From positions 2,108,001 through 2,172,000 of the forward strand of contig NZ_CP027657.1 of the NCBI RefSeq assembly GCF_003008615.1: a stretch of DNA of 64,000 bases. The letters run 5' to 3'. The position numbers and the translations under genes are program-made. Shown in pieces: positions 19,244-62,644 of the stretch. Numbering within the stretch: the first letter of the stretch is position 1; every line of letters starts with the position of its first letter. The notes under the pieces were generated by a model that saw only the letters and a program-made list of their open reading frames with translations, was not told the DNA's origin and ran no database searches. This DNA comes from Pseudomonas mendocina (GTDB lineage Bacteria; Pseudomonadota; Gammaproteobacteria; Pseudomonadales; Pseudomonadaceae).

Positions 19244-19385
19244 AGAACCTGTTCAAAGTCTGCTGCGCGTCGGCACTGCGGCGTTAAAAACAGGCTCGGA
19301 CTGCTCATTTACAGCTCGTAAACTCCGCGTCCTCGCCTGTTTTCGCCTTGCATTGCTCTAGCTCGCGAGACTTTGAACAGGCTCT
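19244..19385. repeat. Foldback repeat, copy 1 (142 bp)
   Basis: The ends are AGAACCTGTTCAAAGTCT and its near-exact inverted partner AGACTTTGAACAGGCTCT (17 of 18). Inside are a second inverted pair, AAAACAGGC / GCCTGTTTT, and a central TTTAC-agctc-GTAAA. The whole element can fold into one long hairpin. It is intergenic, between the Ivy-like gene and the SpmAB-type gene. Confidence 0.85.
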
Positions 19386-19466
19386 GAGTAACGGCAGTTT
19401 GCCGGCCGTCCCATAGAGGCGGCCGGCGCGTTATCATCCCCCGCCAGAACGACGAGGGGGTGCGGC

Positions 19467-20696
19467 ATGCTCAATGGCCTGTGGCTGAGCTTTTTTCTGG
19501 TGGCAGCAGTCGCGGGCTTTTCCCGCTGGCTGATCGGCGATGACCCGACGGTGTTCGGTGCCATGGTCGAAAGCCTGTTCGCCATGGCCAAGCTTTCGGT
19601 GGAAGTGATGGTGCTGTTGTTCGGCACCATGACCCTGTGGCTCGGCCTGCTGAGAATCGCCGAGCAAGCCGGCCTGGTGGATGCGCTGGCGCGCGTACTG
19701 GGCCCGCTGTTCGCCCGCCTGATGCCGGAAGTACCGCGCGGCCATCCCGCGCTCGGGCTGATCACCATGAACTTCGCCGCCAATGGCCTGGGCCTGGACA
19801 ACGCCGCCACGCCCATCGGCCTCAAGGCCATGCGCAGCCTGCAGGAGCTGAACCCGGACAAGCTCACGGCCAGCAACGCGCAGATTCTCTTTCTGGTGCT
19901 CAACGCTTCGTCGCTCACCGTGCTGCCGGTATCGATCTTCATGTACCGCGTGCAGCAGGGCGCCGAAGACCCAACCCTGGTATTCCTGCCGATTCTTCTG
20001 GCGACCAGCGCCTCGACCCTGGTCGGCCTGCTGTCGGTGGCCCTGATGCAGCGCCTGCGACTATGGGATCCGGTGGTGCTGGCCTATCTGATTCCCGGTG
20101 CACTGCTGCTCGGCGGCTTCATGGCGCTGCTGGCCGGCCTGAGCGCCACGGCACTGGCGGCGCTGTCATCGCTGCTCGGCAACCTGACGCTGTTTGGGGT
20201 GATCCTGGCCTTCCTGGTAGTCGGTGCGCTGCGCAAGGTCAAGGTCTACGAGCAGTTTATCGAGGGCGCGCGCGAAGGCTTCGACATCGCCAAGAGCCTG
20301 CTGCCATACCTGGTGGCGATGCTCTGCGCCATTGGTGTGCTGCGCGCCTCGGGCGCCCTGGAGTTCGGTCTCGACGGCATCCGCTGGATGGTCGAGGCCT
20401 TCGGCTGGGACACCCGCTTCGTCGAGGCGCTGCCCACCGCGCTGGTCAAGCCGTTCTCCGGCAGCGCGGCACGCGCCATGCTGATCGAGACCATGCAAAG
20501 CCATGGTGTGGACAGCTTCCCGGCGCTGGCCGCGGCGATCATCCAGGGCAGTACGGAAACCACCTTCTACGTGCTGGCAGTGTACTTCGGCGCGGTCGGT
20601 ATCCAGCGTGCACGCCACGCCGTAGGCTGCGCCTTGCTGGCGGAGCTGGCCGGGGTGATCGCCGCGATCACCGTCACCTACTGGTTCTTCGGCTGA
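19467..20696 (+). CDS. Nucleoside-recognition / SpmA-SpmB-type membrane protein
   Basis: 409 residues, strongly hydrophobic with about 10 membrane segments. It joins two halves of the Gate (nucleoside recognition) domain in the manner of spore maturation proteins A and B. Family motifs: MTLWLGLLRIAEQAGLVDAL, then ITMNFAANGLGLDNAATPIG, TASNAQILFLVLNASSLTVLP, and in the second half LVKPFSGSAARAMLIETM and IIQGSTETTFYVLAVYFGAVG. In non-sporulating bacteria the transported compound is unknown. GGGGGTG precedes ATG 19467. It is a single gene. Confidence 0.85.
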   Translation: MLNGLWLSFFLVAAVAGFSRWLIGDDPTVFGAMVESLFAMAKLSVEVMVLLFGTMTLWLGLLRIAEQAGLVDALARVLGPLFARLMPEVPRGHPALGLITMNFAANGLGLDNAATPIGLKAMRSLQELNPDKLTASNAQILFLVLNASSLTVLPVSIFMYRVQQGAEDPTLVFLPILLATSASTLVGLLSVALMQRLRLWDPVVLAYLIPGALLLGGFMALLAGLSATALAALSSLLGNLTLFGVILAFLVVGALRKVKVYEQFIEGAREGFDIAKSLLPYLVAMLCAIGVLRASGALEFGLDGIRWMVEAFGWDTRFVEALPTALVKPFSGSAARAMLIETMQSHGVDSFPALAAAIIQGSTETTFYVLAVYFGAVGIQRARHAVGCALLAELAGVIAAITVTYWFFG

Positions 20697-20715
20697 TCCC
20701 AGGAAGCGGAACAGT

Positions 20716-21300
20716 TCAGTCGGAGGCAAACCCCAGCTTGTCGCCGACCCAGCTCAGCACCGGGTCGGCATGGTCATATTCGCGCAAGGCCAGCAATTTG
20801 GGTTCGATGAACGCTTCGAAGTCGTCGGCCTGCTCGAAATACACGCCCGTGAAGATGGTGAACATCGATTTGTTGCCGACCGTGGCATAGAACAGGTTGC
20901 CCACCGGCTCACCATCCTGGGTCAGCAACCTGAGACTGGCGCGGGTCGCCAGCTGCGTGTCCAGTTCCAGCTCCTGTTGGGCCAGGCCGCTGTCGCGCAG
21001 ACCGAACGACGCACCGAAGGTCTCGGCATAACTGGTCATCAACGCATCAGCGGGCCGCGGGTAGAGCGAGACGCCGCTGTAGAGATAGAACCAGTCGCTG
21101 TCCTCACTCTCGAAACTGAGGTCGATGCTGCGCGCCGCGTAGGTCACCAGCTTCTCGTAACGGCCTTCGGCCGGCGCCTCATAGGCCGCGAAATCCTCAC
21201 TGCTGAGCAGCAGTCGCCGCTCTTCGGCGAGCGGTGTTTCGTGGTCGATGCAACCCACGAGCGACAATAGGCTGAGCATCATCAGCACGTTCCTGAACAT
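20716..21300 (-). CDS. Hypothetical lipoprotein
   Basis: 194 residues from ATG 21300 (MFRNVLMMLSLLSLVGC), a type II signal with lipobox LVGC, and GGAGG upstream. The mature part has an acidic N-terminus, an alternating beta-type centre (YEKLVTYAARSIDLSFESED, then DSDWFYLYSGVSLYPR) and a C-terminal segment ending WVGDKLGFASD. I do not recognise the family. It converges with the SpmAB-type gene at a distance of 19 bases. Confidence 0.75.
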   Translation of the reverse strand: MFRNVLMMLSLLSLVGCIDHETPLAEERRLLLSSEDFAAYEAPAEGRYEKLVTYAARSIDLSFESEDSDWFYLYSGVSLYPRPADALMTSYAETFGASFGLRDSGLAQQELELDTQLATRASLRLLTQDGEPVGNLFYATVGNKSMFTIFTGVYFEQADDFEAFIEPKLLALREYDHADPVLSWVGDKLGFASD

Positions 21301-21552
21301 GGCATTCCTCCCTGAATGAGCGCGAGCAGCTTGCCCGATCCAGGCACGCCTCGCCACTTGCAGCCGTTACAGCTGTGCGCGACGCCACATCATTCGTCCG
21401 CCTGGCGTGAATCGCCACCCTCACTGGCCGGCTGCATCCGCCTAGCCTGAGCACGGGCTAGAACAACAATCACAAGGCCCGTTTATCGAATCGTCACGCA
21501 CTGGTTTGCTAGGCGTTCGGCCGTTGAACGGGTACGCCGCCAGGAACCTTCC
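21301..21552. other. Intergenic DNA with no clear feature
   Basis: About 250 bases between the lipoprotein start and the epimerase remnant. I see no convincing gene, strong promoter or repeat. Confidence 0.4.
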
Positions 21553-21696
21553 ATGCGTATTTTGATCACCAGTGCAGCCGGTTTCATCAGCCATCAACTG
21601 CTTGCAGAGCTGGCCATCCAGCACCCGCAATGGACACTAATCGCCGGCGAGACCTTCGTCGCCTTTCTCAAGGCGCAAGGCCTCAGCTACCGCTGA
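21553..21696 (+). pseudogene. Remnant of an NAD-dependent epimerase/dehydratase gene
   Basis: A 47-codon frame: MRILITSAAGFISHQLLAEL, then AIQHPQWTLIAGETFVAFLK and AQGLSYR. The opening is the Rossmann beta-alpha-beta start of extended SDR epimerases, but the family GxxGxxG has become SAAGFIS, losing the first and last glycines. The first 30 residues look N-terminal and the last 16 look like a C-terminal helix, so the centre (roughly 270 residues in a full enzyme) seems deleted in frame. It overlaps the dodecin gene tail to tail. Original family member not certain. Confidence 0.6.
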
Positions 21697-21898
21697 GGCG
21701 AAAGCCGACCTTGAGCGTCACCTGATAGTGGCCGACCTTGCCGTCCTCGATATGCCCACGGGTGTCGACGACCTCGAACCAATCCATATTGCGCACGCTC
21801 TTGGCACATTCGGCCAAAGCGTTCTCGATGGCATCCTCGATGCTGGTACGGGACGAGCCGACGATCTCGATCTTCTTATAGGTATGCTGGGTGGACAT
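21683..21898 (-). CDS. Dodecin, flavin-binding
   Basis: 71 residues, MSTQHTYKKIEIVGSSRTSI, then EDAIENALAECAKSVRNMDW and FEVVDTRGHIEDGKVGHYQVTLKVGF. This is the dodecin fold: one helix packed on a three-stranded sheet. It keeps the conserved Trp of the flavin-stacking site (in MDWFEV) and a Gln in GHYQVTLKVGF. Dodecins form 12-subunit shells that store riboflavin, FMN or FAD. Length is normal, and the gene stands alone. Confidence 0.95.
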   Translation of the reverse strand: MSTQHTYKKIEIVGSSRTSIEDAIENALAECAKSVRNMDWFEVVDTRGHIEDGKVGHYQVTLKVGFRLSGS

Positions 21899-21988
21899 GA
21901 TGGACTCCTGAGTCCTGAGGGTTCCCCCTTGAGACTAGCCGCCGCAGCAGAAGTGTCATTTACAGGCACCTCGCCAGATCGCAAAAAT

Positions 21989-22009
21989 GCGACAAGTTCT
22001 CATTCATTA
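21989..22009 (+). promoter_or_regulatory. Fur-like box in front of ECF relic
   Basis: GCGACAAGTTCTCATTCATT matches the boxes before the intact sigma genes downstream in most positions. It is degraded at the right end. Confidence 0.4.
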
Positions 22010-22022
22010 TGAGACACCTCTC

Positions 22023-22246
22023 TTGTCGACTGCCTCCAAGCTGGGATTTTCCTTCATCGACCACCACCGCTGGCTGCTGCAATACGTCCACCGCCAACTG
22101 CGCAGTCGCGCCGACGCCGAAGACACCGCCGCAGAGACCTTCTGCCAACTGCTCGGCGCCCGGGTCGACCCGAAAAGCCTCTAAAAGCCTCGAACAACCA
22201 AATGCCTTTCTCTCCACCGATGCCCTTCGCAATGTCCTGGCGGCAT
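22023..22246 (+). pseudogene. Relic of a FecI-type ECF sigma factor gene
   Basis: The first part reads STASKLGFSFIDHHRWLLQY, then VHRQLRSRADAEDTAAETFC and QLLGARVDPKSL, then a stop at 22184. This is region 2 of FecI-type sigma factors (compare LYRDHAGWLQSWLRKRLGDR in the next gene). Directly after, in another frame, comes SLEQPNAFLSTDALRNVL, which corresponds to the REPRSFLATVAKRVM segment. So a frameshift and loss of the 3' half have killed it. The anti-sigma and receptor genes of this cassette are gone. Confidence 0.65.
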
Positions 22247-22299
22247 TGAGCCTTTTCCCTCGACTGTTGTTTCAAAAACAGAGTCACCCGAATACAATC

Positions 22300-22320
22300 G
22301 CGATCAATTCTTATCCGCAT
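22300..22320 (+). promoter_or_regulatory. Fur-like iron box, cassette 1
   Basis: GATCAATTCTTATCCGCA within a 21-base near-palindrome, 25 bases before the sigma gene start. The same sequence with few changes recurs at 26537 and 30870 before the next two sigma genes. Confidence 0.6.
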
Positions 22321-22344
22321 CGCTTTTGTCAAAGGAAGATCCGG

Positions 22345-22857
22345 GTGTCCCGCGCCTCGCTGCACGATGAAATGCACTGCCTCTATCGCGATCACGCCGG
22401 CTGGCTGCAGAGCTGGCTGCGCAAGCGCCTGGGCGACCGGCAGCGCGCGGAGGACATTTCCCATGACACGTTCGTACGCCTGATCGCTTCCACCGTGGCT
22501 CATCCATTACGCGAGCCGCGCAGCTTTCTGGCGACCGTGGCCAAGCGGGTGATGGTCGATCACCTGCGTCGACGCAGCCTGGAGCAGGCCTACCTGGAAG
22601 CCCTGACGCAGGAGCCCGAGTTGCAGGAATGCTCGCCGGAACAGCGCCTGCTGATGCTGGAAACCCTGCTGCAACTCGATGCCATGCTCGACGGCCTCGG
22701 CACCAAGGTGCGCCAGGCGTTTCTGTTCGCGCAGCTGGAAGGCCTGAGCTATGCCGAAATCGCCCAGCGCCTGGAGGTTTCCGTCAGTTCGGTGACCAAG
22801 TACATGGCCAAGGCCACCACTCAGTGCCTGTTGTTCGCCCTGGATGCCGAAGGGTGA
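22345..22857 (+). CDS. FecI-type ECF sigma factor, iron cassette 1
   Basis: 170 residues from GTG 22345 with AAGGAAG upstream. The frame is open much further 5', but that part runs into the relic and is not sigma-like. Region 2 is MHCLYRDHAGWLQSWLRKRL to EDISHDTFVRLI. Region 4 is the C-terminal GLSYAEIAQRLEVSVSSVTKYMAKA helix-turn-helix. Such factors are released by a FecR protein when the partner receptor binds its siderophore, and then drive the receptor gene. The stop overlaps the anti-sigma start (GTGA). Confidence 0.92.
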   Translation: MSRASLHDEMHCLYRDHAGWLQSWLRKRLGDRQRAEDISHDTFVRLIASTVAHPLREPRSFLATVAKRVMVDHLRRRSLEQAYLEALTQEPELQECSPEQRLLMLETLLQLDAMLDGLGTKVRQAFLFAQLEGLSYAEIAQRLEVSVSSVTKYMAKATTQCLLFALDAEG

Positions 22858-23792
22858 ACGCCGCCGAACAGCGCCTGGCGCTGCGCGATGCCGCCCACTG
22901 GCATGCCCGCCTCGGCGCCGCCCCGAGCTGCGCGCAGACGCAGCAGCAATGGCAGGCCTGGCACCGGCAGAGCGCCTTGCACCAATGGGCCTGGCAGCGC
23001 CTGGAAGACCTGCAGGCCGAACTCCAGGGCCTGCCTGGGCCGCTGGCGCGCCGCGCCATGGGAGCGAGCGTGCAGGCGACTCGGCGCACCCTGCTCAAGG
23101 GCCTGGTGCTCGGCCTGGGCGTTTCCAGCCTGGCCTGGACGGGCTACCGGCAGAGTCCGATCTGGCTGGCCGACCAACGCACCGCCACCGGCGAACGGCG
23201 TAGCCTGACCCTGCAGGATGGCACCCGCCTGATCCTCAACACCGCCAGCGCGGTGGATATCCGCTTCGACGCCCAGCAACGGCTAATCATTCTGCGTGCC
23301 GGTGAAATCCTTATCGAGACGGCCAAGGATTCGCGCCCGTTCAAGGTGCGCAGCGCCCATGGCGAGATGCGCGCTTTGGGCACGCGCTTTAACGTGCGTC
23401 AGCATGAAGATCGCACCACGCTCAGCGTGCTGGAGCATGCCGTCGCCGTGCGTAACGCACCGGGCCGTGAAGAAGTCCGTGTCGAGAGCGGCATGGGGCT
23501 GGACTTCGCTGCTGGCGCACTGGCAACCCCGCACCCCATCGACCTTAATCACAGTACCTGGAGCCAAGGACGCCTGGTGATCGATGACTGGCGCCTGGAT
23601 CGTACCCTGGCCGAACTGCAGCGCTACCGTCCTGGTGTCATCGTTTGTGCCGATGACGTTGCCGGTTTGCGTCTTTCCGGCGCCTACCCGTTGGACGATA
23701 TCGACCGTGCCCTGAGCGCCATCGCCCAGGCGCTGCCGGTGCGCATCGAGACCCGCACGCGCTATTGGGTAAGCATCAAAGCGCGCAAGTGA
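22854..23792 (+). CDS. FecR-type anti-sigma / sigma regulator, cassette 1
   Basis: 312 residues from GTG 22854, coupled to the sigma gene by GTGA. The cytoplasmic N-terminal DUF4880-type part holds paired Trp residues (AHWHARL, QQQWQAWHRQSALHQWAWQRLEDLQ). One membrane helix follows near residue 90 (TLLKGLVLGLGVSSLAWTGY). The periplasmic FecR domain begins GERRSLTLQDGTRLILNTASA. The last segment (LSGAYPLDDIDRALSAIAQALPVRI) is the STN-like part that contacts the receptor signalling domain. Confidence 0.93.
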   Translation: MNAAEQRLALRDAAHWHARLGAAPSCAQTQQQWQAWHRQSALHQWAWQRLEDLQAELQGLPGPLARRAMGASVQATRRTLLKGLVLGLGVSSLAWTGYRQSPIWLADQRTATGERRSLTLQDGTRLILNTASAVDIRFDAQQRLIILRAGEILIETAKDSRPFKVRSAHGEMRALGTRFNVRQHEDRTTLSVLEHAVAVRNAPGREEVRVESGMGLDFAAGALATPHPIDLNHSTWSQGRLVIDDWRLDRTLAELQRYRPGVIVCADDVAGLRLSGAYPLDDIDRALSAIAQALPVRIETRTRYWVSIKARK

Positions 23793-23819
23793 AAATATTT
23801 TTCATTAGCGATTGTCGGT
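23792..23819 (+). promoter_or_regulatory. Candidate ECF-sigma promoter of receptor 1
   Basis: GAAAAT, a 16-base spacer, then TGTCGG followed by TTTTCC. A matching element (GAAAAT, 15 bases, TGTCGG, TTTTGCC) precedes receptor 2. The GAAAAT/TGTC pattern resembles promoters of FecI-class factors. Confidence 0.5.
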
Positions 23820-23878
23820 TTTCCAATCTCGCTCGACCTCTCCTGCAAACCGCCTTACCGGTATTTGAAGGAGCCCTC

Positions 23879-26278
23879 ATGTCGCATATCCACCAGCACG
23901 CCAGAAAGCCTCTGGCCATCGCCATCCTCGGCGCCACCCTGGCTCTGAACGCTGGCTTTATCCTGCCGCTGTTGAGCGACGCCAGCAAGGCCCACGCCGA
24001 AGAGGCGGTAAAGACCTACGCCATAGCCGCTGGGACCCTGGGCTCGGTGCTTAGCCGTTTCGCCAACGAGGCGGGTGTAGTGCTGTCGTTCGATGCGACG
24101 CTTACCAATGGCAAGCAAAGCCCAGGTTTGCAGGGCAGCTATAGCGTGGAACAGGGTTTTGCACAGTTGTTGGTGGGTAGCGGGTTGCAGGCGGTCGCCA
24201 GCGGCTCGAGTGATTTCAGCATCATCCCAGCGAGCAACAGCGGTAACGCCCTGGAACTGTCGGTGATGAGTATTTCCGGCAAGGCACCGGGTTCGATCAC
24301 CGAGGGCACCGGTAGCTACACCACTGGCTCGACCAGCAGTTCCACGAGGCTCAACCTGTCGCTGCAGGAAACCCCGCAGTCGATCACCGTGCTGACCCAG
24401 CAGCGCATGGAAGACCAGAATCTGGACAACCTGCCCGATGCGCTCAGCGCGACCACCGGGGTAATCGTCAAACCCTTCTCCGGCGGTGGCGACGGCCCGC
24501 AGATCTGGGCGCGCGGCTCGAACATCCGCAACTACCAGGTCGATGGCGTGCCCAGTTCGGCATCCATGTCGAACTACGTGCAGAGTACCGCCCTGTACGA
24601 CCGGGTCGAGATCGTCAAAGGTGCCACCGGCATGATGAGCGGCCTGGGCAACCCATCCGCTACCGTCAACATGATCCGCAAGCGGCCGACCTTCGAGCCG
24701 CAGCTAAAGCTCAACGTGGAGGCAGGCAGTTGGGATCGCTACGGCAGCATGGCCGATGTCTCCGGCCCGCTGACCGAAAGCGGCAACCTGCGCGGGCGTT
24801 TCGTCGCCGACTACAAGAACCAGCATGGCTGGACCGACAACTTCGAGCAGGAGTACCAGACGCTCTACGGCATCGTCGAGGCGGACCTGAGCGAGTCGAC
24901 CATACTCACCCTCGGCGCCAGCCAGATAAAGCGCAAGAGCACGTCGCAGACCAACACCTTCCCGGTGTACTACAGCAACGGTCAGCCCACCGGCGCCGAC
25001 GCTGGCGATAACGACAGCCCAGGCTGGGCCTACTACGACCACGAGCTGCAGAACGTCTTCACCTCCATCGAACATCAGTTCGACTCCGGCTGGAGCCTGA
25101 AGAGCGAGTTCAGCCACGCCGACTACAAGCATGACGCCACTGGCGCGGGGCTGAGCGGAGCGGCCAATCAGGCGACCAATACCATGCCCGGCCTGGTGTT
25201 CCAGCGTTATATCGGGCACAGCGAGCAGGACAGCCTGGATACCTACGTCACCGGGCCATTCTCGCTATTGGGCCGCGAGCATGAGTTGATCGGCGGCTTC
25301 ACGCTTTCGCAACTCGACACCTATGCACCCAGCACGACCCGGATCTCGCCGGCGTTCAGCAACCTCAATCTGGATAGCTGGACCGACGATGTACCCAAGC
25401 CGTCCTTCACCAAGAGCGGCAAGTCGGATACCCGGGAAGACCAGCGCAGCGCCTTTGTCAGCACACGGCTGCACCTGAGCGACGACACCAAGTTGCTGCT
25501 CGGCAGCCGCGTGATTGACTGGAAGAACAGCCGCGAGGCGGTCACCTACAGCACCGGCGCTCGCACCAAGACGACGGACAAACGCAGTGGGATCTTTATC
25601 CCCTATGCCGGTATCGTTCACGATCTCGATGAAACCTGGGCGATCTATGCCAGCTACACCAAGATCTTCCAGCCGCATGACTACTTGACCAATCTGTACT
25701 CCAACTCGCCCATCGACCCCACCGAGGGCACCAGCTACGAAACCGGCATCAAGGCCCGTTTCAATGACGGCGCCCTCAACGCCAGTCTTTCCCTGTTCAG
25801 GACCGAGCAGGAAAATCTGGCGGTATGGGACGCCATCTCTTTCTCCTACATAGGCACCAAAGCCACCACCGAAGGCGTGGAACTGGAGTTGGCCGGCGAA
25901 CTGGCCGAAGGCTGGCAGTTCAGCAGCGGCTATGCCTACAGCGAAAGCCGCAACGACGACGATGAGCGCATCCTCCCGCGAGTGCCGCTGCACAGCCTGA
26001 AGACCTTCACCACCTACCGGCTGCCGGGCACGCTGGACAAGTTCACCATCGGCGGTGGCTTCAACTGGGAAAGCCGCACCCACGACAACGCCTTCGTCGA
26101 GCAGGGCAGTTACATGCTGGTCAACCTGCTGGGCCGCTACGACATCAACGAGCACCTATCGGCGTCGATCAGCGTCAACAACCTGTTCAACAAGGAGTAC
26201 TACCTGGCCATCGCCGGCAACATGGCCGCGTTCGGCGCGCCACGTAACGTGATGACCTCCCTGAGCTACACCTACTGA
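23879..26278 (+). CDS. TonB-dependent siderophore receptor with signalling domain, cassette 1
   Basis: 799 residues from ATG 23879, with AAGGAG upstream. The signal peptide ends AHA near residue 41. Residues about 45-115 form the secretin/TonB N-terminal (STN) signalling domain (TYAIAAGTLGSVLSRFANEA). A TonB-box-like stretch (LELSVMSISG) precedes the plug, which has LQETPQSITVLTQQRMEDQN and RVEIVKGATGMMSGLGNPSA. The beta-barrel ends in SLSYTY, with a terminal aromatic. It belongs with the FpvA/FoxA/FiuA group of ferri-siderophore receptors. The ligand cannot be told. Confidence 0.94.
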   Translation: MSHIHQHARKPLAIAILGATLALNAGFILPLLSDASKAHAEEAVKTYAIAAGTLGSVLSRFANEAGVVLSFDATLTNGKQSPGLQGSYSVEQGFAQLLVGSGLQAVASGSSDFSIIPASNSGNALELSVMSISGKAPGSITEGTGSYTTGSTSSSTRLNLSLQETPQSITVLTQQRMEDQNLDNLPDALSATTGVIVKPFSGGGDGPQIWARGSNIRNYQVDGVPSSASMSNYVQSTALYDRVEIVKGATGMMSGLGNPSATVNMIRKRPTFEPQLKLNVEAGSWDRYGSMADVSGPLTESGNLRGRFVADYKNQHGWTDNFEQEYQTLYGIVEADLSESTILTLGASQIKRKSTSQTNTFPVYYSNGQPTGADAGDNDSPGWAYYDHELQNVFTSIEHQFDSGWSLKSEFSHADYKHDATGAGLSGAANQATNTMPGLVFQRYIGHSEQDSLDTYVTGPFSLLGREHELIGGFTLSQLDTYAPSTTRISPAFSNLNLDSWTDDVPKPSFTKSGKSDTREDQRSAFVSTRLHLSDDTKLLLGSRVIDWKNSREAVTYSTGARTKTTDKRSGIFIPYAGIVHDLDETWAIYASYTKIFQPHDYLTNLYSNSPIDPTEGTSYETGIKARFNDGALNASLSLFRTEQENLAVWDAISFSYIGTKATTEGVELELAGELAEGWQFSSGYAYSESRNDDDERILPRVPLHSLKTFTTYRLPGTLDKFTIGGGFNWESRTHDNAFVEQGSYMLVNLLGRYDINEHLSASISVNNLFNKEYYLAIAGNMAAFGAPRNVMTSLSYTY

Positions 26279-26400
26279 CAGGCGAGCCTGCCGGTATGGC
26301 ATCAGGCAATACCGGCTTGTGGAAGGGGCTTTAGCCGCGACAAGAAACTCGCCGCTGAAGCGCCTCCTGCATGTTGTGGTGCCGCCCCATCATCGATGAT

Positions 26401-26447
26401 CGTTCCCACGCTCTGCGTGGGAACGCAGCCCAGGGCGCTCCGCGCCC
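26401..26447. repeat. REP-like double hairpin
   Basis: A perfect 11-bp stem CGTTCCCACGC / GCGTGGGAACG with a 3-base loop, followed by a 6-bp stem GGGCGC / GCGCCC. The first sequence is a common dispersed palindrome in Pseudomonas genomes. Confidence 0.8.
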
Positions 26448-26536
26448 GTGCGGCATACAGCCCCCACGCAACCATCCGAATACTCAGCCAATTCTCACTG
26501 CAGCTGTTCCCAAATCCGCAGCGCCTCCATACAATC

Positions 26537-26557
26537 GCGATCAATTCTTATCTGCAT
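26537..26557 (+). promoter_or_regulatory. Fur-like iron box, cassette 2
   Basis: GATCAATTCTTATCTGCA, nearly identical over about 30 bases to the box of cassette 1, which points to duplication of the control region. Confidence 0.6.
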
Positions 26558-26578
26558 CGGCGTGCCAGGGAGCCCAGG

Positions 26579-28050: not shown

Positions 28051-28112
28051 GGTGCGCCGTGCGCACCAACCTTATATTGAGGCATCCGGGCGGTGCGCAT
28101 CGCGCACCCTAC
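28047..28112. repeat. Inverted repeat of the GTAGGGTGCGC type, copy A
   Basis: Two 21-base arms, left at 28047-28067 beginning GTAGGGTGCGCCGTGCGC, and right at 28092-28112, its reverse complement with two mismatches, separated by 24 bases. A related element is at 56570. It overlaps the fecR2 stop codon and may act as a terminator. Confidence 0.75.
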
Positions 28113-54282: not shown

Positions 54283-55758
54283 ATGCCCGTCATCGCACAA
54301 ACCAGTACTCCACGCGTTCCATGGGGGCTGTTGCTCGCCCTGTTGGCGCTGGTCGGCATCATCCTGCTGCCTGAGCAGGCCGGCCTGCCGCTCGCCGGAC
54401 AGCGCATGCTGGCGATCCTGGCTTTCGCCGTGATCGTCTGGATCAGTGAATCGGTCAGCTATGAAGTCAGCGCCATCATGATTCTGGCGCTGATGGCCTT
54501 CCTCCTTGGCAGCGCGCCGACGCTGAGCGACCCGGACACGCTGATCGGCACCAAGGACGCCTTGAGCATGGCGCTCGGCGGCTTCGCCAATTCGGCACTG
54601 GCACTGGTGGCCTCGGCATTGTTCATCGCCGCCGCAATGACCCAGACCGGGCTGGACAAGCGCATTGCCCTGCTGACCCTGTCTAAGGTCGGCGCCAGCA
54701 CCCATCGCGTGCTACTGGGCGCCATCGTGGTGACCATATTGCTCAGCTTCATCGTGCCCAGCGCGACCGCGCGAGTGGCCTGCGTGGTGCCGATCATGAT
54801 GGGGGTGATTGCTGCCTTCGGCGTCGACAAACGCTCGGCCTTCGCGGGTGGCATCATGATCCTGGTCGCCCAGGCCACCAGCATCTGGAACGTCGGCATC
54901 CAGACTTCGGCAGCGCAGAACCTGCTCACCGCCGGTTTCATGCATAAGCTGCTCGGCGAATCGGTGACCTGGACCGACTGGCTGATCGCCGGCGCACCCT
55001 GGAGCCTGCTGATGTCGGCGGTGCTGTACTGGGTGATACTGCGCGTGATGCCGCCGGAGACCGACCGTATCGAAGGCGGCAAGGAGGCGGTGCGCAAGGC
55101 ACTCGCCGAGCTCGGCCCGATGACCTTCGACGAACGCAAGCTGCTGATCACCGTCCTCACCCTGCTCGGCTTCTGGGCCACCGAAGGCAAGCTGCACAGC
55201 TTCGATACGGCCTCCACTACTCTGGTGGGGCTTGCCGTTCTGCTGATGCCCGGCCTCGGCGTGATGAGCTGGAAACAGGCGCAGCCGCGCATTCCATGGG
55301 GCACGGTGATCGTCTTCGGCGTCGGCATCAGCCTCGGCAGCGCAGTGCTGGCCACCGGCGCCGGCACCTGGCTGGCCAGGCTGCTGGTGACCTACCTCGG
55401 CATGGAAGGGCTGTCACCGTTCTGGGTGTTCGCCGTGCTCGGCCTGTTCCTGATCCTCATCCACCTGGGTTTCGCCAGCGCCACGGCGCTGACCTCGGCC
55501 ATGCTGCCGATCATGATCGCGCTGCTACTGCAGCTGGGCGGCGACATCAACCCGCTGGGCATGAGCATGCTGCTCGGCTACGTGGTTAGCTTCGGCTTCC
55601 TGCTGCCGATCAACGCGCCGCAGAACATGGTCTGCATCGGCACGGAAACCTTCACTGCACGGCAGTTCCTGCGTACCGGCATCTGGCTGACGCTGGTCGG
55701 CTACCTCCTGACGCTGGTGTTCGCGCTGACCTGGTGGCGCTGGCTAGGCTGGATCTGA
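54283..55758 (+). CDS. SLC13/DASS-family anion transporter
   Basis: 491 residues from ATG 54283, with CGGAGAAAC upstream. It is about 12 helices of the divalent anion:sodium symporter family: IVWISESVSYEVSAIMILAL, LSFIVPSATARVACVVPIMM (SNT-like ligand loop as S-A-T), and LLPINAPQNMVCIGTETFTA near the end. Substrates of the family are dicarboxylates, tricarboxylates or sulfate. Its operators suggest tight induction by a dedicated regulator not seen beside it. The SDR gene follows after 38 bases. Confidence 0.88.
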   Translation: MPVIAQTSTPRVPWGLLLALLALVGIILLPEQAGLPLAGQRMLAILAFAVIVWISESVSYEVSAIMILALMAFLLGSAPTLSDPDTLIGTKDALSMALGGFANSALALVASALFIAAAMTQTGLDKRIALLTLSKVGASTHRVLLGAIVVTILLSFIVPSATARVACVVPIMMGVIAAFGVDKRSAFAGGIMILVAQATSIWNVGIQTSAAQNLLTAGFMHKLLGESVTWTDWLIAGAPWSLLMSAVLYWVILRVMPPETDRIEGGKEAVRKALAELGPMTFDERKLLITVLTLLGFWATEGKLHSFDTASTTLVGLAVLLMPGLGVMSWKQAQPRIPWGTVIVFGVGISLGSAVLATGAGTWLARLLVTYLGMEGLSPFWVFAVLGLFLILIHLGFASATALTSAMLPIMIALLLQLGGDINPLGMSMLLGYVVSFGFLLPINAPQNMVCIGTETFTARQFLRTGIWLTLVGYLLTLVFALTWWRWLGWI

Positions 55759-55796
55759 ACAGGCACTCTTGGGCCTTCACGACAAGGAGCATGCCA

Positions 55797-56540
55797 ATGA
55801 GCAAGAACCTGCTGATCACCGGTGCCAGCCGTGGCATCGGTCGCGCTACCGCCCTGCTGGCCGCCACCCAGGGTTGGACGGTGGGCGTGAATTACCGAAG
55901 CGACCGCAGCGCCGCCGACGAAGTGGTGAAGCAGATTCTCGCGGCGGGCGGCCAGGCCGTCGCCCTGCAGGGCGACGTGGCCAACGAAGACGACGCGCAG
56001 CGCCTGTTCGAAGCCATGGACAAGCTCGGCACCCTGCACGGTCTGGTGGTCAACGCCGGTATCGTCGCCCCACCCATGCCGTTGCTGGACATGAGTGGCG
56101 AACGCCTGCGACGCATGTTCGACGTCAACGTGCTGGGCAGCTACCTCACCGCCCGCGAAGGCGCCCGGCGCATGGCGCGCAGTCGTGGCGGCGAAGGGGG
56201 CTCGATGGTGCTGGTGTCGTCGGTAGCCGCCAGCCTCGGCTCGCCATTCGAATACGTCGACTATGCCGGCGCCAAAGGCGCAATGGACGTGCTGACCCGC
56301 GGGCTGGCCAAGGAACTGGGCGGCGAGGGCGTGCGGGTCAACGCCGTGAGGCCAGGGCTGATCGACACCGAAATCCACGCTAGCGGCGGCCAACCGGGTC
56401 GCGCCGAGCGCCTGGGCAAGACCACACCACTAGGCCGCGCCGGACGGGCCGAAGAGGTCGCCGAAGCCATCGTCTGGCTGCTCGATGACAAGGCCAGCTA
56501 CACCACCGGCGCGCTGATCGATATCGCGGGCGGCCGCTAA
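55797..56540 (+). CDS. Short-chain dehydrogenase/reductase
   Basis: 247 residues from ATG 55797 (MSKNLLITGASRGIGRATAL), chosen over ATG 55791 by distance from AAGGAG. The cofactor loop is TGASRGIG, the NAG motif is VVNAGIV, the catalytic Ser is in VLVSSVAASLG, and the YxxxK pair is YVDYAGAKGAMD. The basic residues after strand 2 (NYRSDRS) suggest NADP(H). The substrate is unknown. It may be co-transcribed with the SLC13 gene. Confidence 0.93.
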   Translation: MSKNLLITGASRGIGRATALLAATQGWTVGVNYRSDRSAADEVVKQILAAGGQAVALQGDVANEDDAQRLFEAMDKLGTLHGLVVNAGIVAPPMPLLDMSGERLRRMFDVNVLGSYLTAREGARRMARSRGGEGGSMVLVSSVAASLGSPFEYVDYAGAKGAMDVLTRGLAKELGGEGVRVNAVRPGLIDTEIHASGGQPGRAERLGKTTPLGRAGRAEEVAEAIVWLLDDKASYTTGALIDIAGGR

Positions 56541-56569
56541 AGCACGCCCCATATCCCCTCGTATCCGCT

Positions 56570-56622
56570 GTGCACGGCGCACCCTAGGCGTTTAGCGCGA
56601 GGTAGGGTGCGCCATGCGTACC
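56570..56622. repeat. Inverted repeat of the GTAGGGTGCGC type, copy B
   Basis: Left arm GTGCACGGCGCACCCTA (56570-56586) and right arm beginning TAGGGTGCGCCATGCG (56603-56622). It is related to the element at 28047. It lies between the convergent SDR and dkgB genes. Confidence 0.7.
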
Positions 56623-56651
56623 GCTGACAAGCCAGACGACTTTCCGCAGGC

Positions 56652-57455
56652 TCAATCCCAACGGGGCGCGAAGCCGGGGTTGGCGACCCGCTCGCCACGC
56701 TCCAGGGTGGCGATGACGGCCATGTCGTCGGCACTCAGGCGCAGCTCGGCGGCGCCCAGGTTGGCCGCCAGGTTCTCGCGTTTGGTCGAGGACGGAATCA
56801 CCGCATAACCCTGCTGCAGCGACCAGGCCAGTGCCACCTGCGCCGGGCTGACGCCATGAGCGGCGGCGATACGCTGGATCTCCGGCTCGGCCAGCACCTT
56901 GCCGTAGGCCAGCGGCATGTAGGCAGTCAGGTGGATGCCCTGCTGACGGGCGAAATCCACCAACTGGCGGTTCTGCAGCAGCGGATGGATCTCCACCTGG
57001 TTGGTGGCGATCTCGTCGACACCCACGGCATCGATGGCCTGCCGTAGATGGGCAATGGTGAAGTTGGACACGCCAATCGCTGCCGTCAGCCCCTGGCGCT
57101 TGGCCTCCAGCAGCTCGCCCAGATACTGCGCCACGGGGATTTCATCGTTCGGCGACGGCCAGTGGATCAACGTCAGGTCGACCCGTTCCAGACCCAGGCG
57201 CTGCAGGCTCTCCTGCAGGCTGGCAAGTACCCGGCCGCTGCCGAGGTTTTCAGTCCAGATCTTGGTGGTGACGAACAACTCATCACGCGCCACGCTGCTA
57301 GCAGCGATGGCCTGGCCAACCGCGGCCTCGTTGCCGTAGATCTGCGCGGTGTCGATATGCCGGTAGCCCAACTCCAGCCCCGTGCGCACCGAGTCGATGG
57401 CAACCTGATCCTTGAGACGGAAAGTACCCAGGCCGAAAGGGGGAATGAATTTCAT
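56652..57455 (-). CDS. dkgB: Aldo/keto reductase, DkgB (2,5-diketo-D-gluconate reductase B) type
   Basis: 267 residues, the DkgB length. AKR motifs: [20 protein letters not shown] with catalytic Asp and Tyr, [12 protein letters not shown] with Lys, LTLIHWPSP with His, and the NADPH site [15 protein letters not shown]. The enzyme reduces 2,5-diketogluconate, methylglyoxal and other carbonyls. It is divergent from a LysR gene that probably controls it. Confidence 0.93.
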
Positions 57456-57603
57456 GCAGATCTCCTTGATCGATGTCCGAGGCGCGCCAGCGGCCCCGTG
57501 GTCACGGACAGGCCCGAAGGCAGTTGATGACGCGCAGTATCCGGGCCAGACTCATGCGGAAAAAGCCGATAGCCCAGCAAACACCTTTGACTGAAGATCA
57601 ACA

Positions 57604-58497
57604 ATGAAGATCAGCCTGGAAGAAATGCTCGCCTTCGTCAGCGTGGTCGACAGCGGCTCCATCAGCGCCGCCGCCGAGCAACTGGATCAGACCGCTTCCG
57701 GCGTCAGCCGTGCACTGAGTCGCCTGGAGGAAAAACTCGCGGTTACCCTGCTGCGCCGAACCACGCGGCGCCTGGAGCTGACCGAGGAGGGCGAGGTATT
57801 CCTGACCCAGGCGCGGCGTATTCTGGCCAGCGTAGAGGAGGCCGAGGAGCAGATGACACTACGGCGCCAGGCACCGGCCGGGCGCCTGCGCATCAATACT
57901 GCCTCGCCGTTCATGCTGCATGTGATCGTGCCGCTGATCGGCGACTTTCGTGCACGTTACCCCCAGATCGAGCTGGAATTGAACAGTGATGACCGCATCA
58001 TCGACCTGCTGGAACGACGTACCGACCTGGCCATTCGCATCGGCCACCTGCCGGACTCCAGCCTGCATGCCCGGCCGTTGTGCCATAGCCGCCGCCGCGT
58101 GCTGGCCAGCCCCGCGTATCTGGCGCGCCATGGCGCACCGACACGTACCGAAGACCTCTCGCAGCACAGCCTGATCGGCTTCACCGAGCCGGACAGTCTC
58201 AACGAATGGCCGCTGCGCCACGCCCTCGGCGAACGCTGGCGCATCACCCCAAGCCTGCGCGCCTCCAGCGGCGACACCATGCTCGAACTGGCGCTGATCG
58301 GGGAAGGCCTGGTGTGCTTGTCGGACTTCATGACCGATGCCGCCCGCGCCAGCGGTGCACTGGTAGAAGTGCTGGCTGAACAACGCGTGGAGGTGCGCCA
58401 ACCGGTCAATGCGGTGTACTACCGCAACACCGCACTGGCCTCACGCATCACCTGTTTCCTCGATTACCTAAGCGAGCGTCTGGGCTGCCCGGCCTAA
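57604..58497 (+). CDS. LysR-family regulator divergent from dkgB
   Basis: 297 residues. The N-terminal winged helix is MKISLEEMLAFVSVVDSGSI then AAAEQLDQTASGVSRALSRL. The C-terminal effector domain has LRINTASPFMLHVIVPLIGD and ELALIGEGLVCLSDFMTDAA. It matches the LysR clade beside DkgB (YafC-like). The short divergent gap of 148 bases is the likely site of control. Its stop codon abuts foldback repeat copy 2. Confidence 0.92.
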   Translation: MKISLEEMLAFVSVVDSGSISAAAEQLDQTASGVSRALSRLEEKLAVTLLRRTTRRLELTEEGEVFLTQARRILASVEEAEEQMTLRRQAPAGRLRINTASPFMLHVIVPLIGDFRARYPQIELELNSDDRIIDLLERRTDLAIRIGHLPDSSLHARPLCHSRRRVLASPAYLARHGAPTRTEDLSQHSLIGFTEPDSLNEWPLRHALGERWRITPSLRASSGDTMLELALIGEGLVCLSDFMTDAARASGALVEVLAEQRVEVRQPVNAVYYRNTALASRITCFLDYLSERLGCPA

Positions 58498-58638
58498 GAG
58501 CGTGTTCAAAGTCTGCTGCGCGTCGGCCATGCAGCGTTGAAATCAAGCTCAGAATGCTCATTTACATCTCGTAAACTGCGCTTCTTCGCTCGATTTCGCC
58601 TTCCCTGGCTCTAGCTCGCGAGACTTTGAACAGGCTCT
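58497..58638. repeat. Foldback repeat, copy 2 (142 bp)
   Basis: Same length and end arms as copy 1: AGAGCGTGTTCAAAGTCT and AGACTTTGAACAGGCTCT. The internal arm pair differs (GAAATCAAGC with GCTCGATTTC) but still pairs. Confidence 0.85.
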
Positions 58639-58639
58639 A

Positions 58640-58868
58640 AGAACCTGTTTACGATCTGCTGCGCGTCGGCGCTACTGCGTTAAAAACAAGCTCGGAAAGC
58701 CGCTTGCGGCTAACGCACTTCAGTGCGGCCCCGAAGGGGCGAGCGAAGCGAGTCATGCTCATTTACCACCCGTAAAGTCGAGCGCGACTCCGACCACTCC
58801 TCGCTTGTTTTTGCGGGGCCGCCATCGGTGTTGTATCGCTCTAGCTTGCGAGATCGTAAACAGGCTCT
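58640..58868. repeat. Foldback repeat, copy 3 (229 bp), with an internal insertion
   Basis: The ends are AGAACCTGTTTACGATCT and AGATCGTAAACAGGCTCT: both arms changed from copy 1 in matching positions. The internal pair is AAAAACAAGC / GCTTGTTTTT. About 80 extra bases include three small hairpins in a row (58699-58740). It starts one base after copy 2. Confidence 0.85.
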
Positions 58869-58884
58869 AAGGCACAAAGAAAAA

Positions 58885-58903
58885 GGCGACTCATTGAGTC
58901 GCC
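58885..58903 (-). terminator. Terminator after pbpG
   Basis: A 9-bp stem GGCGACTCA / TGAGTCGCC with a one-base centre and flanking A/T runs, 20 bases past the pbpG stop. Confidence 0.75.
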
Positions 58904-58922
58904 CTTTATCGTCAGCAGCGGA

Positions 58923-59825
58923 TCACTGCGCGGCCTGCATGCTCCACTCGGCGAGCTTCTGCTGCTTGTAGCTGAGCGCGGCGGCTGGCACCGGGGTGAC
59001 CTTGCCGGTCTCCATCCAGCGCTTGAGGCGGTTGGCGTCAGCCATGTGGGTGTACTTGCCGAAGGCGCCGAGCACGACGAACGCCACCGGGCGGTTGGCG
59101 ATGGTGGTAGCCATCACCAGGCAGCGACCAGCGGCATTGGTGAAGCCGGTCTTGCTCAGGTTGATGTTCCAGTCCGCCTTGCGCACCAGGGCATTGGTGT
59201 TGCGAAAGCCCAGGGTGTAGTTGGGTTTGCGGAAGGCCACGGTGGCTTCCGAGTCGGTGCTGAACTGGTGGATCAACGGGTACTGGCTGGCGGCCTTGAC
59301 CATCATCGCCAGATCACGCGCGGTGGCGACGTTCTGCTCCGACAGACCGGTCGGCTCAACGAAGTGGCTGTTGCGCATACCCAGCGCCTTGGCCTTGGCG
59401 TTCATGGCCGCGACGAAGGCCGAGTGGCCACCTGGGTAGTGGTGGGCGAGGCTGGCGGCGGCGCGGTTTTCCGAGGACATCAGTGCCAGGTGCAGCATCT
59501 CGCGGCGCGTGATCTCGCTGCCCACTCGCACACGAGAGAACACGCCCTGCATTTCCTGGGTATCGCGGATGGTGATCGGCAGTACCTCGTCCAGTGGCAG
59601 CTTGGCGTCGAGCACTACCATGGCGGTCATCAGCTTGGTGACCGAAGCGACCGGCAGGCGTAGATCCGGATTACTGGAATAGAGCTCCTGGCCAGTTTTC
59701 AGATCGATCAGCAATGCGCTACCGGCGGCCAGCTCCTGCTTTGGCTGGGCCGGCGCGGCCTGGAGGTTCGAAACAACAAGGCTGCTGCACAGCAGCAAAC
59801 CCAAAATCGAATGACGGAGTTTCAC
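58923..59825 (-). CDS. pbpG: D-alanyl-D-alanine endopeptidase, PBP7/8 type
   Basis: 300 residues with a Sec signal (cleavage near AAPAQ, residue 24). The penicillin-binding triad is complete: SVTK at 61-64, SEN at 118-120, KTG at 225-227. It cuts D-Ala-mDAP cross-links in periplasmic peptidoglycan. Length and [19 protein letters not shown] fit PbpG. Single gene with a terminator. Confidence 0.95.
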
Positions 59826-59938
59826 GGTTCACTTCACCGGTTGGAGTGTGGGAGCCGCTGGCAGGTGATGAAAAAAGACCGGCTAGAGCGGCGGCGACCA
59901 GTATAGGGATCACGCTTGGCTATTGCAGTATGGCCCGG

Positions 59939-60859
59939 TCAAACGGTTGCTGCTGGCGAATCCAGCTCAGCCTGCAACCAGTCGACGAAACGCTCGGTCA
60001 GGCGCTGGCGACGCTTACGCTCGGGCAGTACCAGGTAATAGCCAAGCGCCGAGTGCGCTTCGGCGTCACCCAGACGACAGAGCAGCCCCTGCGCGAGAAG
60101 TTCATCCACCAGATGGCGCCAGCCGATGGCCACGCCTTGCCCGGCGATGGCCGCCTGGATCAGCAGGGTGTAGTTGTCGAAGCGCAGCGCGCCGGGTGTC
60201 GGCAGGCTGGCGATGCCGAGGGCGCGGAACAAGCCCTCCCAGTCGAACCAGCGCGAGCGGTGCTCCGGGCGCAGGTGCAACAGCGGCAGCTCGGTCAGCA
60301 CAGCGCTCGGCAGCGGCGGCTGGCGCTCGCCGAGCAGGCGCGGGCTGCACACCGGGAACACCTCCTCGCGAAACAGCAGGTGCGCTTCGCCGTGCTTGAA
60401 GCGGCCGTCACCGAAGTGGATCGCCACATCGATCTCGCTGGACAGCGTGGCCGTATCGCGCTCGCTGGTGATCAGACTGACGTCCACTTCCGGGTACAGG
60501 CGATTGAAGCGCTGCAGACGCGGCATCAGCCAGTAGGCGGCGAAAGCGAAGTCGGTGGCCACCTGCAGCACCTCATGCTGCTGCCGCGCGGTGACCGCGA
60601 CGAGCCCGGCGTCGAGGCTGGCCAAGCCCTCCTGCACATGGCTCAGCAGCAGCTCGCCGGCCTCGGTCAGGACGATGCCGCGATAGACGCGGTCGAACAG
60701 GCGCGTCGCCAGTTGTTGTTCCAGGCGCTTGATCTGCTGGCTGATGGCCGGCTGGCTGCTGCCCAGCTCGCTGGCGGCGGCGGTGAAACTGAGCTGGCGC
60801 GCCGCCGACTCGAACACCCGCAATGCGTCGAGCGACAGCCCATCGATGGCTTTAAACAT
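59939..60859 (-). CDS. LysR-family regulator of choline-sulfate utilisation
   Basis: 306 residues (MFKAIDGLSLDALRVFESAA). Winged helix with LSFTAAASELGSSQPAISQQIKRL, then a GcvA-class effector domain (RFDNYTLLIQAAIAGQGVAI). It is divergent from betC, and the palindrome ATAAGC-TCT-GCTTAT overlaps its start codon, so it probably represses itself and activates betC. The role is inferred from position. Confidence 0.87.
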   Translation of the reverse strand: MFKAIDGLSLDALRVFESAARQLSFTAAASELGSSQPAISQQIKRLEQQLATRLFDRVYRGIVLTEAGELLLSHVQEGLASLDAGLVAVTARQQHEVLQVATDFAFAAYWLMPRLQRFNRLYPEVDVSLITSERDTATLSSEIDVAIHFGDGRFKHGEAHLLFREEVFPVCSPRLLGERQPPLPSAVLTELPLLHLRPEHRSRWFDWEGLFRALGIASLPTPGALRFDNYTLLIQAAIAGQGVAIGWRHLVDELLAQGLLCRLGDAEAHSALGYYLVLPERKRRQRLTERFVDWLQAELDSPAATV

Positions 60860-60872
60860 AAGCTCTGCTTAT
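60858..60872. promoter_or_regulatory. LysR-type operator between betC and its regulator
   Basis: A perfect 6-3-6 palindrome ATAAGCTCTGCTTAT that touches the regulator's start codon and lies about 100 bases before betC. Confidence 0.55.
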
Positions 60873-60972
60873 CCGAGGCATGTGTCGCAGCCGGGTTTAC
60901 CCTGCTGCCGTTCTACCGGAATCATGGTGCCAGCACTGTCGCATAAACCAACAGTATGGAATACCCGCCACC

Positions 60973-62481
60973 ATGAAGCGCCCGAACATCCTCTTCATCA
61001 TGGCCGACCAGATGGCCGCGCCGATCCTGCCGCTGCACGATGCTGCCTCGCCGGTGCAGATGCCCAACCTGATGAAGCTGGCCGAGCAGGCCGTGGTGTT
61101 CGACTCAGCCTACTGCAACAGCCCGCTCTGTGCGCCATCGCGCTTCACCCTGGTCAGCGGCCGCCTGCCATCGAAGATCGGTGCCTACGACAACGCCGCC
61201 GATTTTCCCGCCGACGTACCCACCTACGCCCACTACCTGCGCCGCCTCGGCTACCGCACCGCACTGTCGGGCAAGATGCACTTCTGCGGCCCGGATCAGT
61301 TGCACGGCTACGAGGAGCGTCTGACCAGCGACATCTACCCGGCCGACTACGGTTGGGCGGTGAACTGGGACGAGCCGGACGTGCGCGCCAGCTGGTACCA
61401 CAACATGTCCTCGGTGCTGCAGGCCGGCCCGTGCGTGCGCAGCAACCAGCTGGATTTCGACGAAGAGGTGGTGTTCAAGGCCCGTCAGTACCTCTACGAC
61501 CACGTGCGCATGAGTCCGGATCAGCCGTTCTGCCTGACTGTATCGATGACCCACCCGCACGACCCCTACACCATCCCGTGCGAATACTGGGATCGCTACG
61601 AGGGCGTGGACATTCCCATGCCGCGCCAGCACATCGACCAGGCCGAGCAGGATCCGCACTCGCAGCGCCTGCTCAAGGTCATCGACCTGTGGGACAAGCC
61701 GTTGCCCGAGGACAAGATCCGCGAAGCCCGCCGCGCCTACTTCGGCGCCTGCAGCTATATCGACGACAACATCGGCAAGCTGCTGAAGACCCTGGAGGAA
61801 TGCGGCCTGGCCGAGGACACCCTGATCGTCTTCTCCGGCGACCACGGCGACATGCTGGGTGAGCGCGGCCTCTGGTACAAGATGCACTGGTTCGAGATGT
61901 CCGCCCGCGTGCCGCTGCTGGTACATGCGCCGAAACGCTTCGCCGCGCACCGGGTGAGCCAGTCGGTTTCGACCCTCGATCTCTTGCCGACCCTGGTAGA
62001 ACTGGCCGGCGGCCAGATCGACGATGACCTGGAACTGGAGGGCCACTCGCTGCTGCCACATCTGCAAGGCAAGGGCGGCCACGATGAAGTGCTCGGCGAA
62101 TACATGGCCGAGGGCACCGTCAGCCCACTGATGATGATTCGCCGCGGCCCGTGGAAGTTCATCTACTCCAATCAGGATCCACTGCTGCTGTTCGATCTGG
62201 ACAGCGACCCGTTCGAACGTCAGAACCTGGCCGAGTCCAGCGAGCATCGCGGCATCCTCGCCGGTTTCGTCGCCGAAGCATGCGAGCGCTGGGACATCCC
62301 GACCATCCACGCCGCCACCCTCGCCAGCCAGCGTCGCCGCCGTCTGGTGGCCGAGGCGCTAAGCCAGGGCAAGCTGACCAGTTGGGATCACCAGCCCTGG
62401 GTCGATGCCAGCCAGCAATACATGCGCAACCACATCGACCTCGACGATCTGGAGCGCCGCGCCCGTTTTCCCCAGGTATGA
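60973..62481 (+). CDS. betC: Choline-sulfatase
   Basis: 502 residues from ATG 60973 (MKRPNILFIMADQMAAPILP). The sulfatase site is CAPSR at 53-57, whose Cys53 becomes formylglycine. Asp11-like metal residues in ADQ and the FSGDHGDMLGERGLWYK segment complete the metal centre. The C-terminal tail (SWDHQPWVDASQQYMRN) is typical of BetC. It hydrolyses choline-O-sulfate to choline and sulfate in the cytoplasm. choX and a sulfate permease gene follow, so both products are handled nearby. Confidence 0.96.
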   Translation: MKRPNILFIMADQMAAPILPLHDAASPVQMPNLMKLAEQAVVFDSAYCNSPLCAPSRFTLVSGRLPSKIGAYDNAADFPADVPTYAHYLRRLGYRTALSGKMHFCGPDQLHGYEERLTSDIYPADYGWAVNWDEPDVRASWYHNMSSVLQAGPCVRSNQLDFDEEVVFKARQYLYDHVRMSPDQPFCLTVSMTHPHDPYTIPCEYWDRYEGVDIPMPRQHIDQAEQDPHSQRLLKVIDLWDKPLPEDKIREARRAYFGACSYIDDNIGKLLKTLEECGLAEDTLIVFSGDHGDMLGERGLWYKMHWFEMSARVPLLVHAPKRFAAHRVSQSVSTLDLLPTLVELAGGQIDDDLELEGHSLLPHLQGKGGHDEVLGEYMAEGTVSPLMMIRRGPWKFIYSNQDPLLLFDLDSDPFERQNLAESSEHRGILAGFVAEACERWDIPTIHAATLASQRRRRLVAEALSQGKLTSWDHQPWVDASQQYMRNHIDLDDLERRARFPQV

Positions 62482-62510
62482 ATCTTTGCCTACTGCCGCC
62501 CCCAAAAGGA

Positions 62511-62644
62511 CACCTATAAAAACTACCTGCGTTGCCATCACTGCGTTAAAAACAGGCTCAAAATGCTCATTTACAACTCGTAAACTGCGCTTTTTCGCCT
62601 GTTTTTGCCTTGCGCTGGCTGCCTCGCCTACGTTTTTAGAGGTG
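62511..62644. repeat. Foldback repeat, copy 4 (134 bp), with different end arms
   Basis: The core (CTGCGTTAAAAACAGGCTC, AATGCTCATTTAC, then GCCTGTTTTTGCCTTG) matches copy 1. The end arms are unrelated to copy 1 (CACCTATAAAAAC and GTTTTTAGAGGTG) but still pair with each other. It is between betC and choX. Confidence 0.8.

Follow-up and report, generated by a model that had tools for sequence, protein, structure and literature searches.

The DNA analyzed here is a 64,000-nucleotide stretch of the Pseudomonas mendocina chromosome (the window; positions 2,108,001-2,172,000 of 5.77 Mb), which contains four copies of a short foldback element. Inspection of the sequence placed these copies where the original prediction had located them. 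A covariance model of the element core, built from 36 copies of which four came from this genome, detected only these four places across the whole window at E-values as high as 10. As copy 1 was among the copies used to build the model, its match arises by construction. The copies and their flanks are given below, with end types as defined further on; all copy limits exclude the target-site duplication (TSD).

19242..19244, no strand: TAA flanking copy 1 on the left; the right flank is TGA (19385-19387), making the duplication inexact
19245..19384, + strand: copy 1, 140 bp, type A ends GAACCTGTTCAAAGTC...GACTTTGAACAGGCTC; core match 19257-19367, 104.3 bits
58495..58497, no strand: left TSD of copy 2, TAA; a LysR-type regulator gene (57604-58497) ends with this stop codon
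58498..58637, + strand: copy 2, 140 bp, type A ends; core match 58510-58620, 97.5 bits
58638..58640, no strand: TAA common to copies 2 and 3, a tandem insertion into the duplicated target
58641..58867, + strand: copy 3, 227 bp, type A variant ends GAACCTGTTTACGATC, with inserted modules; match 58653-58833, 22.2 bits
58697..58754, + strand: module of copy 3 left of the apex, AGCCGCTTGCGGCTAACGCACTTCAGTGCGG...GAGTCA; limits set by eye
58813..58833, + strand: right-arm module of copy 3, GCGGGGCCGCCATCGGTGTTG; limits set by eye
58868..58870, no strand: right TSD of copy 3, TAA
About 62508..62647, + strand: copy 4, about 140 bp, type B ends GGACACCTATAAAAAC...GTTTTTAGAGGTGCCC; core match 62519-62629, 104.1 bits

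Copy 2 thus occupies the TAA stop of the LysR-type regulator gene, and the duplicate of that TAA holds copy 3. On either side of copy 4 are genes for a choline-sulfatase and a choline-binding protein, and its immediate flanks are the unequal tetranucleotides AAAA and ACAC. RNA folding of the + strand gave z = -7.1 for copy 1 and -4.9 for copy 4, with none of 200 shuffles folding as well. The outer arms paired as originally quoted. The predicted inner-arm pairing held for copies 1, 3, and 4, while in copy 2 a single A.C mismatch interrupts TCAAGC/GCTCGA. The low score of copy 3 is due to its inserted modules. Within the window, hairpin-like modules lie at 58697-58754, 58777-58791, and 58813-58833; at least six such modules recur at similar positions inside elements, and 39 of 66 copies in this genome carry at least one.

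Spread and folded core of the element

The core motif TGCTCATTTACANNTCGTAAAC, allowing up to 3 mismatches, matched this genome 67 times (46 forward, 21 reverse), compared with 0 matches for its reversed control. In a 400 kb sample of the same genome, the covariance model returned eight matches at E<=0.002, seven of them already known and one new, such that 67 copies is a minimum. The exact pattern GCTCATKTAC-N5-GTAMAC was present in 26 of 95 relatives and in 42 of 274 genomes sampled across the class, representing 36 of 222 genera, with this genome included in both counts; its reversed control matched once in the two surveys together. At the level of the phylum, the covariance model matched 95 of 299 genomes and 36 of 153 genera at E<=1e-6.

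A longer core pattern matched at least 120 stretches in named genomes. Among the 80 matches listed with titles, and assigned by title, 48 were apparently gammaproteobacterial, 18 belonged to Bacteroidota (Alistipes, Rikenellaceae, Bacteroidaceae), eight to Nitrosomonadales or Gallionella, four to Desulfobacterales or Desulfuromusa, and one to Mariprofundales, with one uncultured. The matches listed take in beta-, zeta-, and desulfobacterial records. Many of these records, including all 18 from Bacteroidota, are metagenome-assembled genomes in which misbinned contigs are possible. The Bacteroidota copies have ends of their own (GAATAAAAAG...).

Thirty-six non-redundant copies (set A1, of which four rows, including copy 1, are from this genome) aligned without gaps over 111 columns. 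Set A1 was selected by an exact core pattern together with GTT/GTC- and GCC-type motifs, so that invariance of those letters is by construction. Copies with large inserts were left out, as were those with different spacing, 41 of the 165 collected; the latter are also absent from the ungapped strand counts given below. Within A1, a 27-pair structure was 93.2% paired compared with 72.0% after shuffling, and 21 of its pairs showed double changes. Its covariation score of 0.552 compared with 0.165 for shuffled columns and a maximum of 0.127 for slid partners (0 of 500). When all 5778 column pairs were ranked by mutual information with average product correction (APC), the top nine, and 19 of the top 23, were pairs of the structure. 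The six lowest ranks were the six structure pairs that are invariant in A1. Both the mutual-information and the shuffle tests ignore phylogeny.

A second set (A2) was found by an A1-derived model, and therefore leans to the same letters, and its alignment was fitted to the structure. Across 46 model-found copies, sX9-type copies included, changes in the apex stem were compensated as G-C or A-T pairs. The TCA of the left loop and both C of the CT.C right loop were unchanged in 46 of 46, letters which the search model favors. The non-pairing internal loops TGCGTT/GCCTT, TC/TC, and TCA/CTSC were among the most conserved parts of the element, partly by construction of the set. Chance palindromes were ruled out by the 67 vs 0 control, the folding z-scores, and the covariation ranks.

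The compensatory changes proposed from the window copies were therefore recovered, by mutual information and column shuffles, in a far larger sample. Their proposed meaning, a conserved fold, is supported for the inner stems, which covary around near-invariant loops in many taxa, more than the symmetry of terminal repeats would give. It does not extend to the end arms, where covariation follows from transposase recognition, since terminal repeats must match in any case. These patterns suggest that the inner core is a selected fold, as either RNA or single-stranded DNA, and selection on the folded strand, most likely RNA, is the likeliest reading of the core body.

Terminal repeats and insertion sites

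The outer arms sort into types A to F, with further types elsewhere.

Type A end: GAACCTGTTCACGATC or GAGCGTGTTCAAAGTC
Type B end: GGGCACCTCTAAAAAC
Type C end: CAGGCCGTGTGAAAAC
Type D end: GGTTCTGTACGAAAAGT
Type E end: CAGGCCGTTGAAAAAC
Type F end: GAGGGTGTCTACAAA

That end arms are interchangeable, as first proposed, proved real. A scan of 248 copies by a tight rule typed 90 (48 E, 15 A, 10 B, 9 D, and 8 C) and left 158 untypable. For example, a copy with type E ends from a viral-collection contig (L103) and a copy with type B ends from this genome (L057) were 95.5% identical over the inner 111 nt, whereas their terminal 10-11 nt differed at each end. Two different terminal repeats thus occur on nearly the same body.

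Three of the end types are shared with autonomous elements. Type D repeats also form the termini of a 0.9 kb element found in this genome, which carries a 283-aa transposase of the IS5 family (NF033580). Type E bounds 1.34 kb elements in a congener (G012), where the one protein typed was also of the IS5 family (NF033581). Type C bounds 1.6 kb elements in two congeners (G012 and G018), and the one protein typed there was an IS1182 transposase (NF033551). In the examples compared side by side, the terminal repeat was the sole sequence common to the insertion sequence and the small element. The outer arms are best read as terminal inverted repeats (TIRs) of different DDE insertion sequences. The IS1182-type ends of one small element (L047) and of two insertion sequence copies (L130 and L134) sit within palindromes.

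Target duplications changed with the ends, as types A/F, E, and B differed from one another. For types A and F, 24 copies from this genome were picked by a tight end rule; for types B to E, 262 copies drawn from all of the collected genomes were examined. The triplets flanking type A/F copies were equal in 20 of 24, compared with 26% when left and right flanks were re-paired, and conformed to TNA in 22 of 24 on the left and 23 of 24 on the right. Of 57 type E copies, 24 had equal 4-bp duplications, where re-pairing would give 7.2, and 33 were flanked by YTAR on the left as well as the right. Type B showed a 4-bp duplication without YTAR in eight of 17 (0.3 expected). YTAR stood on both sides of six of 14 type D copies.

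The type A/F triplet coincided with the stop codon of an adjacent open reading frame (ORF) in 10 of 24 copies, compared with 12 of 153 other nearby non-coding TNA sites (Fisher p = 7e-5). A looser count gave 11 of 24 vs 14 of 434, the two counts disagreeing on one copy. ORF calls came from a simple composition filter rather than annotation. Only 4 of 66 copies in this genome overlapped a called ORF, and an ORF caller applied to the joined flanks placed eight of the 24 type A/F sites inside a called ORF.

A clean empty site was found for copy 4. The relative G008 lacks 141 bp, corresponding to about 62504-62644 of the window, and is contiguous at C5:1102860|1102861, with flanks 90% and 88% identical. 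Copy 1 is absent from G008, G012, and G539, in which the spacer has diverged. Vertical inheritance at fixed loci, which would have spoken against mobility, is thus not the pattern at copy 4, and the predicted mobile, structured, and dispersed element is supported by both the compensatory changes and this empty site.

Proposed transposition in trans, the core, and competing explanations

We consider it probable, at roughly 0.78, that these elements form a superfamily of the miniature inverted-repeat transposable element (MITE) type, non-autonomous DNA transposons in which transposase-matched outer ends enclose a conserved hairpin core. The window elements, at 140-227 bp, carry no transposase gene and are multicopy, dispersed, and mostly intergenic. 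Like MITEs, they have target duplications (types A/F, E, and B), an empty site in a relative (clean for copy 4), and, for types C, D, and E, TIRs in common with an autonomous element. The outer layer would consist of 15-20 bp TIRs copied from or adapted to an available IS5- or IS1182-family transposase. Judging from the shared ends, IS5/IS1182-type transposases would provide the catalysis and mobilize these MITEs in trans, each excising the element and inserting it with its own duplication. This would be TNA in types A and F, YTAR in type E and probably type D, and four unspecific bases in type B. Insertion at TNA within TAA or TGA would restore the stop codon, allowing the gene to survive. 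The inner layer would be a hairpin of about 110 nt, with near-invariant loops and covarying stems, retained while the ends change. Ends may be exchanged through recombination, or when a mutated arm serves as the template for its partner (foldback template switching). The core could, once folded as RNA or single-stranded DNA, make insertions tolerable or aid mobility.

Several observations weigh against this explanation. Equality of the type D duplication (4 of 14) was no more than a fixed target gives (2.8 expected), and type C showed no consistent duplication, with one of 11 equal at 4 bp. TSDs were mismatched in copy 4, in copy 1, and in three more of the 24 copies of type A/F. A search with two transposase families in this genome and 13 others gave no autonomous partner for types A, B, and F. 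The IS5 element ISPsy19 has a repeat, GAGGGTGTAGACAAAAT, similar to type F and makes a 3-nt duplication (PMC3189936), and the likeness of type F to an insertion sequence comes solely from this printed IS5-family terminal repeat. Finally, the identity of the folded strand is uncertain, as mismatch counts differ between the pattern-selected, independent, and model-fitted sets.

Similar elements have been described, here compared through the accessible portions of each report. MITEPsy1 of Pseudomonas syringae is likewise a small IS5-type MITE, of 100 nt with 18-nt TIRs and a CTAG or YTAA duplication, which transposes in vivo (PMC3189936). The first 15 nt of its TIR had no exact occurrence in 429 loci. 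The P. fluorescens R0, R1, R2, R6, and R178 repeats are likewise intergenic, contain inverted repeats, show a tail-to-tail bias, and were proposed to be MITEs, with IS-like ends in R0 and R2 (PMC2718517); the available text describes no common core with several end types. ERIC, Correia/NEMIS, and YPAL are likewise small mobile stem-loop repeats but, as described in what we could access of that source, are separate elements each with its own ends (PMC2229807). Within the open-licence literature, none of the top 20 of 69 titles matched by the core sequence dealt with such an element, and searches for common cores with differing ends and for stop-codon insertion gave no description of it among the matches listed.

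MITEs are normally regarded as deletion derivatives of one insertion sequence. In kind, the present elements are ordinary MITEs; what is unusual is one conserved folded body with many end types across phyla. Its ends represent three or more transposase groups (IS1182 and two subgroups of IS5), along with several unassigned ones. If this is confirmed, the evolution of terminal repeats and transposase switching would become directly testable, and insertion at stop codons would offer a route to harmless integration. As a more tentative extension, which we hold with less than even confidence, the core might be an independent selfish folded module (RNA or single-stranded DNA), ranging from Bacteroidota to Gammaproteobacteria and re-dressed in the TIRs of successive unrelated transposases, each with its own TSD. 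Foldback would then let one event rewrite both ends, with type A insertions restoring stop codons.

One alternative places the emphasis on RNA, with the core being a structured sX9-like RNA expressed from the elements and the MITE ends merely its vehicle. The Rfam family RF02228 (sX9) matched one copy in this genome, at 3,288,758, with 39.1 bits, which is under the gathering threshold of 44; a scan of the whole window at gathering scores did not return sX9. Among 229 genomes, seven had RF02228 matches, this one included, and two of the seven exceeded the cut-off. From these seven genomes, 20 sX9 loci were fetched, of which 18 matched the core model at E<0.1 and 16 fitted it at full length at E<1e-8, including the copy from this genome. 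The sX9 consensus matches the 3' half of the hairpin, but its 76-nt model covers half of the element and is annotated as a Xanthomonas small RNA (sRNA). On these alignments, sX9 is a member of the same family as the element. The sX9 family itself appears to cover one half of a mobile element and may have been drawn with the wrong limits. This would explain a much-annotated sRNA, which a review ranks with the bacterial sRNAs annotated most often (PMC9029176), as a piece of such an element.

Of 165 copies, 159 folded better as the complement strand, as did 35 of the 36 non-redundant ones, and on this strand the TC/TC loop reads as tandem G.A, both of which speak for the RNA reading. However, sX9 is modeled on the strand opposite to the better-folding one, and neighboring genes showed no orientation preference (15 ++ vs 11 --). 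Expression as an RNA with the ends as vehicle is less likely than not. Mismatches gave a mixed picture of the strand. Counts of A.C vs G.T favored the complement strand in 124 ungapped copies (77 vs 27, p = 1e-6) and in 36 non-redundant copies (29 vs 14, p = 0.03), stood at 6 vs 4 in 15 independently found copies, and leaned the opposite way in the model-fitted set A2 (16 vs 30).

Alternatively, the elements may be plain MITEs in which all symmetry, inner stems included, is mutational, with template switching at quasi-palindromes during replication copying arm onto arm, which would mimic compensation with no selection on the fold. Template switching has been reported to create and maintain hairpins (PMC8794818), and a coordinated swap of both ends on near-identical bodies, as between L103 and L057, is what arm copying would produce. 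Repair toward a perfect palindrome should, however, erase the internal loops TGCGTT/GCCTT, TC/TC, and TCA/CTSC, which are instead highly conserved, and the apex alternates between G-C and A-T pairs around an unchanged loop. We regard this explanation as unlikely.

Element orientation in this genome followed replication (49 of 67 with the origin at 2.1 Mb, p = 2e-4; 45 of 67 with the origin at 2.3 Mb, p = 0.007). Nearly all of the excess came from one replichore (32:4 vs 17:14; GC skew). In G539 the bias was not significant (42 of 73, p = 0.24), and replication-strand bias was dropped as a signature of single-stranded DNA. Although the strong fold as DNA and the orientation in this genome would suit an element of single-stranded DNA, akin to REP/RAYT, IS200/IS605, or attC, that a fold-reading enzyme moves, the combination of inverted ends, target duplications, and matching DDE transposons points to double-strand DDE transposition, and the TNA duplications of type A already largely refute such an element, leaving it very improbable. 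An attC site, considered because of the R-box motif, was also set aside, as copies are single, dispersed, and TSD-flanked.

In Rfam scans, the element matched curated families below threshold or not at all, and weak matches in relatives to miRNA, snoRNA, and sRNA families, sX9 excepted, were judged to be chance. At gathering scores, the only known Rfam family matched in the window was the unrelated P10 Pseudomonas sRNA, at 8637-8708 on the - strand (84.4 bits).

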